The notes under the pieces are model-generated. The model did no database searches. It saw only the letters and a list, made by a program, of their open reading frames with translations, and had not been told where the DNA came from. This document shows, piece after piece, positions 912 through 26,979 of a DNA stretch of 64,000 nucleotides. How positions within the stretch are numbered: the first letter of the stretch is position 1; every line of letters begins with the position of its first letter. Source of the DNA: Burkholderiaceae bacterium (GTDB lineage: Bacteria > Pseudomonadota > Gammaproteobacteria > Burkholderiales > Burkholderiaceae_F); contig JAFAIM010000007.1 of the NCBI GenBank assembly GCA_019236735.1, positions 1 through 64,000 on the forward strand, given 5' to 3'. Position numbers and translations under genes: made by a program.

Positions 912-1079
912 CTAGTGGCATGTAACACCCGATTCCGGAGGGAAAGGCGCGCCCGGGCGAGCCGGATGCGCGAAGCGAGCCGAGACGAATATCAGGCGAG
1001 TATTCGCGAGGCGAGCGACAATGCAGCCGGCCGCCCAGGCGCGCAAGGCACTATGGAATCGGGTGTTACATGCCACTAG
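912..1079. repeat. 168-bp palindromic MITE-like element, copy 1
   Basis: The element begins CTAGTGGCATGTAACACCCG and ends with the reverse complement; the terminal inverted repeats are 25 bp (912-936 and 1055-1079) and perfect. The interior also folds on itself, with GC-rich arms and a central CGAATA/TATTCG stem, so the whole element forms one long imperfect hairpin. It has no coding capacity. A second copy at 26812-26979 lies in the opposite orientation and differs at 4 of 168 positions by my alignment. The CTAG at both ends is compatible with insertion at a TA or CTAG target, as known for IS630/Tc1-mariner-type elements. No transposase is in the window. Confidence 0.85.
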
Positions 1080-26811: not shown

Positions 26812-26979
26812 CTAGTGGCATGTAACACCCGATTCCGTAGTGCCTTGCGCGCCTGGGCGGCCGGCTGCTTTGTCGCTTTCCTCGCGAATACTCGCCTGAT
26901 ATTCGTCTCGGCTCGCTTCGCGCATCCGGCTCGCCCGGGCGCGCCTTTCCCTCCGGAATCGGGTGTTACATGCCACTAG
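26812..26979. repeat. 168-bp palindromic MITE-like element, copy 2
   Basis: Same length and same 25-bp perfect terminal inverted repeats (26812-26836 and 26955-26979) as the copy at 912-1079, in opposite orientation, with four substitutions, three of them in the loop-side part of one arm. It sits between the 3' ends of two convergent genes. Its strong hairpin may also block read-through from either side. Flanking bases are ...GCC|CTAG and CTAG|TCTC. Confidence 0.85.

Follow-up and report, generated by a model that had tools for sequence, protein, structure and literature searches.

The window analysed here, a single stretch of 64,000 nucleotides of bacterial DNA, contains two inverted copies of a 168-bp palindromic element. 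We consider it probable that this element is a MITE carrying a hairpin module that is both shared with other elements and under selection, and that the parts of such elements have been recombined between families. MITEs are commonly regarded as dead transposons held together by their ends; an element family that is conserved inside and differs at its ends provides a testable case for functional MITE interiors. The preliminary description of this DNA had correctly seen a palindromic MITE, but it missed the conservation of the interior hairpin, a module that recurs across the order with other ends, IS5-type ends included.

The 168-bp element in its own genome

The element and its parts are located in the window as follows.

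912..1079, plus strand: element copy 1, from CTAG to CTAG, 168 bp
915-1076: element proper of copy 1, between the two TA, 162 bp
26812..26979, minus strand: element copy 2, inverted, with 4 differences relative to copy 1
912..936, plus strand: left 25-bp terminal inverted repeat of copy 1, target C-TA included
1055..1079, minus strand: right 25-bp terminal inverted repeat of copy 1
963..1027, plus strand: hairpin core of copy 1, 65 nt, covariance model R1
26864..26928, minus strand: hairpin core of copy 2, 65 nt
970..974, plus strand: main internal loop of copy 1, 5' side, GCGAA, model columns 8-12
1017..1022, plus strand: main internal loop of copy 1, 3' side, GACAAT here and GACAAA in most copies

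The position and opposite orientation of the two copies had been given correctly in the preliminary description; they are 98% identical by search and differ at four positions in the alignment. As it had also stated, the ends of both copies, CTAGTGGCATGTAACACCCGATTCC, form perfect 25-bp inverted repeats and each copy can form one long hairpin: both strands of copy 1 fold in this way, with energies of -112.4 and -109.1 kcal/mol (z -13.2 and -13.4) that no shuffled sequence reached (0/200 as low). The genome to which the window belongs (G000, referred to as the own genome) is a draft of 3.32 Mb in 95 contigs, and the whole-genome search that had been proposed with the 168-bp sequence revealed a multi-copy element. 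With copy 1 as query, 7 more complete copies were retrieved at 90-98% identity, bringing the complete total to 8, together with one copy cut by a contig end. Nine more two-ended copies are internally deleted (45, 48, 52, 67, 67, 75, 75, 76 and 86 bp), the shortening being around the centre, and decayed single ends are also present. Allowing 3 mismatches at most, the terminal 21-mer matches 35 times in the 3.32-Mb genome and the reversed control pattern 0 times. The copies are spread over many contigs and have unlike flanks. A length under 500 bp, the lack of a transposase gene, terminal inverted repeats and dispersed copies are the properties of a MITE.

Two observations concern the shortened forms. 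In the own genome, the left border GTTGGCGTCTAGTGGCATGTA adjoining a 75-bp deleted copy (L019, G000:C43 near 36611) is tandemly duplicated over 21 bases. In the genome G239, five copies of about 48 bp (L305, L306, L308, L310 and L311), barely more than two terminal repeats, have much the same internal junction at separate loci, as if minimal elements can move.

Of the 17 own-genome copies with two ends, 15 have TA at the left border, 16 at the right border and 14 at both. The inner G/C beside the TA has changed at 0/34 positions and the outer C/G at 8/34 (p 0.005). Because the inner bases are constant, as if they were the element's own, while the outer ones change, a 2-bp TA duplication inside CTAG is the best fit to these sequences for the window's element. 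Duplication of 4 bp, CTAG, is formally possible instead, and CTAG is indeed found on both sides in 9/17 own copies when the boundary is set one base further in. For IS630, a preference for CTAG was reportedly noted by Tenzen and Ohtsubo in 1991. In a wider set of 19 copies, 5 of which come from G030 and G028, TA lies on both sides in 13/19 compared with 12.7 after shuffling; as the target is nearly invariant, shuffling cannot tell a duplication from a fixed flank, and it is the empty sites that support a duplication. Direct repeats of 3 or 4 bases starting at the GTGGC boundary were present in none of these 19 two-ended copies.

To look for empty sites, we joined the flanks of the 17 own-genome copies and compared 10 of them with G066, the set's other representative of this genus. 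Across the junction, five of these ten sites are readable in G066 (C29a, C29b, C71, C47 and C10) and all five lack the element; at C10 the intact target, GCATTCTAG, is retained, as expected. Both window copies (w912 and w26812), C60, C39 and C18 have a one-sided flank match only, the C18 site being empty in a poorer alignment. The ends have two matches in G066 itself, both diverged. Relatives of the 168-bp element, at about 80% identity, occur in G030 (3), G028 (1, with a further, more diverged copy in L082) and G027 (a cut one), which, together with the empty sites, indicates that the element family is older than the species and the tested sites young. Thus the copies, the deletions, the TA flanks and the empty sites identify a recently mobile MITE, and the earlier view of a non-autonomous element recently active in its own genome is supported by its multiple copies, its TA/CTAG flanks and its absence from 5/5 readable same-genus sites. 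One full copy (L005, G000:C29:53433-53600) sits in codon 2 of what appears by eye to be a response-regulator-like frame; its site is empty in G066, where the frame interrupted at C29:53434 starts ATG-CAG-GGC.

Mobilisation of IS630/Tc1 type had been proposed as well. The TA/CTAG flanks and IS630-style ends speak for it, but the transposase gene with matching ends that it called for did not turn up, the own genome's single IS630 carrying a different repeat, CTAGTATCTAGTTGC. This IS630 (L192, G000:C93, 392-1505; NF033545 E 2.4e-72) is the sole PF13358 match of the own genome and has an intact 353-codon frame with perfect 15-bp ends set in CTAG. Ends that start CTAGT(G/A) and are set in CTAG were found at 6/10 IS630-type loci examined, one of them in the own genome; besides CTAGTATCTAGTTGC, they are CTAGTGTACTGTC (gene annotated ISPsy32), CTAGTGTTCCGTC, CTAGTGTGGTGTT, CTAGTGTAGTGTT and CTAGTGGATTGAT. 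The remaining 4/10 have no repeat (L322, L325) or other repeats (L196, L198), and the copies L190, L196 and L198, all in other genomes, have end kinds unlike those of the window's element. The latter's CTAGTGGCATGTAAC follows the IS630 CTAG style, yet it is a different repeat; judged by their letters, the ends look IS630-like. The IS630-type transposon ISY100 is described as inserting at TA with a duplication of TA (PMC2170065).

Profile searches covered PF01797 and PF13358 in 20 genomes and PF01609 in 8. No IS630 with the repeat GTGGCATGTAACACCCGATTC was found in this draft assembly and the limited sample of genomes. The end repeat occurs (up to 3 mismatches) in 5/67 genomes of the family, and in 16 stretches read around such ends no pair at insertion-sequence distance was found. 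A further 20 stretches around single or outlying ends (18 from G239, 2 from G269), in which end pairs were compared and the first bases after each end read, hold deleted copies, one complete copy (L317) and single ends; the only pair at insertion-sequence distance, L314, encloses FlhB-/FlhA-like frames (by eye) and no transposase. We count it against our main reading that no autonomous partner was found for the window's own ends. A search of plasmids and phages with the 168-bp element by BLAST gave no match, and exact-pattern scans of genome contigs and viral contigs gave 0. Mobilisation of the window's element by IS5 appears unlikely, given its GTGGC-type ends and the lack of any PF01609 match in G000 at E<=0.01.

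The hairpin core and the ends around it

In a BLAST search of 399 genomes of the order, the best match outside the own genome was to the middle of the element, 83% over 69 nt at two places in G101 and within a different outer frame; all others covered less sequence or scored lower. Twelve cores, aligned with one single-base gap, form 17 pairs, 8 of them with two-sided changes. The 65-position covariance model finds the core in 66/399 genomes and 39/159 genera of the order, own included, and 18 of these 66 genomes have from 5 to at least 13 core matches each. In a class-wide sample, in which at least three of the unmatched genomes listed belong to the same order, the core was found in 3/369 genomes, own included. 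One of the two outside matches, G466, is built in the same way, its ends being GAACCTATCTCAA, and for this reason is probably a true member.

Covariation was measured on 100 of 290 loci, picked to avoid duplicates, all of which matched the model (120 matches, 100 distinct). In the stored structure 87.6% of the cells pair, against 67.2 in shuffled alignments, and two-sided changes affect 304 cells against 79.7 +/- 11.0 (0/500 shuffles as high); since the alignment is fitted to the model and the shuffles leave relatedness in, it is the size of these effects that counts. The covariation score is 0.503, compared with 0.142 after shuffling and 0.038-0.073 with the partners slid, and the number of pairs with a two-sided change shows a modest excess (15 versus 12.6 shuffled, 7/500 as high). 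Mean identity over the main internal loop (11 columns) is 92%, compared with 77% for the paired columns (45 hairpins, at most 90% alike); ACAA, columns 89-92, is 96-100% identical, and several paired columns are equally constant. In a single sequence, L058, the opposed GA/GA beside the loop has become GC/GC. Since the fold is kept by compensating changes and the loop letters are kept as well, we infer that the core is selected as a folded single strand, that is, as a hairpin signal in RNA or single-stranded DNA. The GCGAA / GACAAA internal loop also offers a defined motif for finding its reader.

Among the 20 additional matches, 17 are second cores that lie beside the first on the opposite strand, 15 at 105-112 nt and two at about 145, from which many sister elements appear to be about 270 bp long and to carry a pair of inverted hairpins, where the window's element has a single one. 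Rfam gave 0 matches in the window at gathering scores, and at 12 loci with E<=5 the only match over a hairpin was mir-301 (E 4.2, far under its gathering score). Away from the element, L137 has a match to the Rfam family Vibrio RNA AS9 at 2319-2419 (44.6 bits, gathering 50). Searched against plasmids, four sister elements gave one match, in the Comamonas odontotermitis plasmid NZ_CP083452.1, and otherwise none; this plasmid (L328) has a core-like hairpin at 1511-1573 (25.7 bits, E 4.6e-5), between ruvA and a trypsin-like gene.

The core was found between five kinds of ends. Anchoring the search on the core retrieved 36 end pairs of GGAANC type, 18 of GAG type and 30 of GGG type, with L240 in the first two sets; a loose GGAA motif used without this anchor returned 279 pairs, mostly false, and was abandoned. 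Exact 4-bp direct repeats flank 12/36 GGAA-type elements, against 3.4 shuffled (1/2000 shuffles as high), and read CTAA, TTAG or CTAG, with ATAG and TAAG once each. GAG-type elements have exact 3-bp repeats (TTA or TAA) in 6/18 cases, against 2.8 shuffled (42/2000 as high), and the GGG type has TA on both sides in 19/30 and no 3- or 4-bp repeats. For the fifth type, CAGGSTGTTGAA, three copies proved true, and one of them is flanked by TTAG on either side. In G100 (L243), two core elements with ends GGGCCTGTTCACAC and GAGCCTATTTCAG lie about 1 kb apart, at 198-462 and 1453-1774.

The only gene found with matching ends, those of the GGAA lineage, is a broken IS5 relic. At L293 (G102), TTAG-GGAACCACTGATTTATTCCC is followed by an IS5-family gene (NF033581 E 2.6e-58; PF05598, PF01609) with a stop after 187 codons, and L208, from another genome of that genus (G224), contains both cores, shares 20/20 bp of its ends with L293 and has CTAT on both sides. 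These ends, together with the 4-bp YTAR duplications, characterise the GGAA sister lineage as an IS5 MITE; by its sequence, the window's lineage does not appear to be one. On plasmids of Aromatoleum aromaticum EbN1 and Hydrogenophilus thermoluteolus, TAG-GGAAGCGCTGATTTATTC and TAG-GGACACACTGATTTATTC, respectively, stand in front of IS5-family genes, whose far ends were not found by the script.

Core and ends seem not to share one history. Among the 91 of the 100 loci with an assigned end type, mean core identity between genera is 0.677 for like ends (522 pairs) and 0.648 for unlike ends (2,994 pairs), in a comparison that covers 65 nt with unequal sampling. The core of G101, which has CAGG ends, is 89% identical to a core of G030, a genome of another family whose element has GTG ends and belongs to the window's lineage, and 72% identical to that of G095, which has CAGG ends too. 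Different end types coexist in G379 (cores 78-79% alike) and G145 (55-66%). It speaks against exchange that in the GGAA lineage core and ends are in part associated, the nearest core from another genus having the same ends in 22/33 cases, though in 32/91 over all types. We read the incongruence of core and end similarity as a sign that some lineages have had their ends or cores replaced, and modules and ends would thus have recombined between element families in evolution.

Of the 103 elements with fixed ends, 52 have a border TA(G/A) that serves as stop codon to an open frame of 300 nt or more, compared with 79/277 background YTAR sites, namely the other YTAR sites of the same stretches (odds ratio 2.6, p 9e-5), counts that rest on open frames rather than proven genes and are both inflated by high G+C. 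In the own lineage 9/20 elements are so placed; at copy 1, a minus-strand open frame, 1076-1666, stops in the right CTAG. This siting suggests why such elements persist, as the duplicated target leaves the frame intact. A crude gene finder placed 114 elements between tandem (58), convergent (26) or divergent (18) genes or inside genes (4), with 8 unclassified. Relative to the tandem genes the core is sense in 20 cases and antisense in 38 (p 0.025 on these crude calls), a weak bias opposite to that of a simple sense-RNA role.

Proposed mechanism and alternative explanations

In the mechanism that we favour, each palindrome is a copy of a non-autonomous DNA transposon, on the ends of which a DDE transposase, most likely of IS630/Tc1 type to judge from flanks and end sequence, would act in trans. 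Insertion would take place at TA, usually within CTAG, with TA duplicated. The hairpin module between the ends is common to MITEs with other ends, including those of IS5 type with 4-bp duplications. As a working guess, the module may act as a hairpin within the 3' part of the RNA transcribed from the neighbouring gene, where a host RNase or a binding protein could process or protect it, and insertion at the stop codon would leave that gene intact. The main alternative to a role in RNA is that the folded DNA strand acts in transposition. A bolder version, which we put forward only tentatively, is that the core is a selected, folded motif and a mobile module independent of any one transposase, captured more than once between unrelated transposon ends (IS630-like, IS5-type and others), so that the cargo would be the unit of descent.

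An ordinary MITE lineage is the strongest rival, although we judge it unlikely. One ancestral two-hairpin MITE, perhaps of IS5, would have diverged vertically, its ends drifting with transposase subgroups and its core kept by descent, and parts would never have been exchanged. Subgroups of the IS5 family with 2-, 3- and 4-bp duplications do exist, the IS5 relic and the YTAR duplications are real, and the agreement of ends with the nearest core in 22/33 GGAA cases fits such descent, as do the CTAG flanks of 9/17 own copies and the resemblance by eye, with one gap, of GGCATGTAACA to GGGCGTGTTAACA of another lineage. However, the constant part of a MITE is usually its ends, and here it is the core that is constant between lineages; moreover, the G101 core is closer to that of G030 with its GTG ends (89%) than to that of G095 with its CAGG ends (72%), and loop letters are on average more constant than stems.

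The core could also be a product of mutation, its arms kept complementary through quasipalindrome correction by template switching, and have no function. Such correction is a known process in palindromes, switching from arm to arm can yield compensating changes without selection, and one deleted copy (C52) has two like arms. This explanation is nevertheless improbable to us, as correction should remove mismatches and the same mismatched loop persists across many genera, with loop letters at 92% mean identity against 77% for paired columns.

Least credible is a REPIN-like element for which a Y1 (RAYT/TIRYT) tyrosine transposase would recognise the hairpins and bring about movement, with the terminal repeats secondary: the two inverted hairpins at fixed spacing in many sister elements do recall REP dimers and the own genome has one Y1_Tnp match above the family cut-off (E 1.8e-6), but Y1_Tnp is absent at E<=0.001 from 8/14 carriers tested (G066, with decayed ends only, counted), among them G239, G269, G224 and G101 with at least 13 core matches each, and target duplications with long terminal repeats suit DDE transposases, so that a RAYT/REPIN identity was rejected for want of a cognate Y1 transposase in these 8 carriers.

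Relation to known systems

Our preferred reading, a MITE with a shared and selected hairpin module, has partial counterparts in several known systems. The letters of the core and the ends were sought in 5.39 million open papers, with unrelated matches only, and topic searches of literature listings returned, in the portions of the sources considered, no description of a hairpin core common to MITEs of different transposase families. REPINs and the GTAG and CGTC REPs (PMC3733652) are likewise palindromic and often paired in inverted orientation, and the part of that source considered describes RAYT genes with long terminal repeats on either side; the window's element differs in being several times longer, with long terminal repeats, and no linked RAYT was found in 8/14 carriers. 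BRE, the Betaproteobacterial repeat element, is described as a GC-rich repeat of about 90 bp that is usually intergenic in Betaproteobacteria (PMC3110155); it is partly tandem, and on comparison by description only a relation is possible. TIMEs illustrate that non-autonomous elements can turn mosaic (PMC4133298), but they are Tn3-derived by the title of that paper, the portion of which considered here makes no mention of a core shared between transposase families.

With regard to the ends, insertion sequences and MITEs of the IS630 family resemble the window's element in a TA duplication, which is probable for the latter, a CTAG preference and, at 6/10 loci examined, ends in CTAGT(G/A), although no IS630 was found in the genomes sampled that carries its repeat. 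The IS5 family (NF033581) and its MITEs are related through the core-sharing sister elements with 4-bp YTAR duplications and GGAACCACTGATTTATTCCC ends, whereas the ends of the window's element are different and its duplication is probably of 2 bp. As for the interior, the Correia elements of Neisseria (CREE/NEMIS), likened here by description only, are also short, with inverted repeats and a conserved core, and differ in that we met no report of the Correia core with other ends. They are described as binding IHF and RNase III, and RNase III may cleave them (PMC2649163). By analogy, the Correia elements may be the best model for the possible role of the core.
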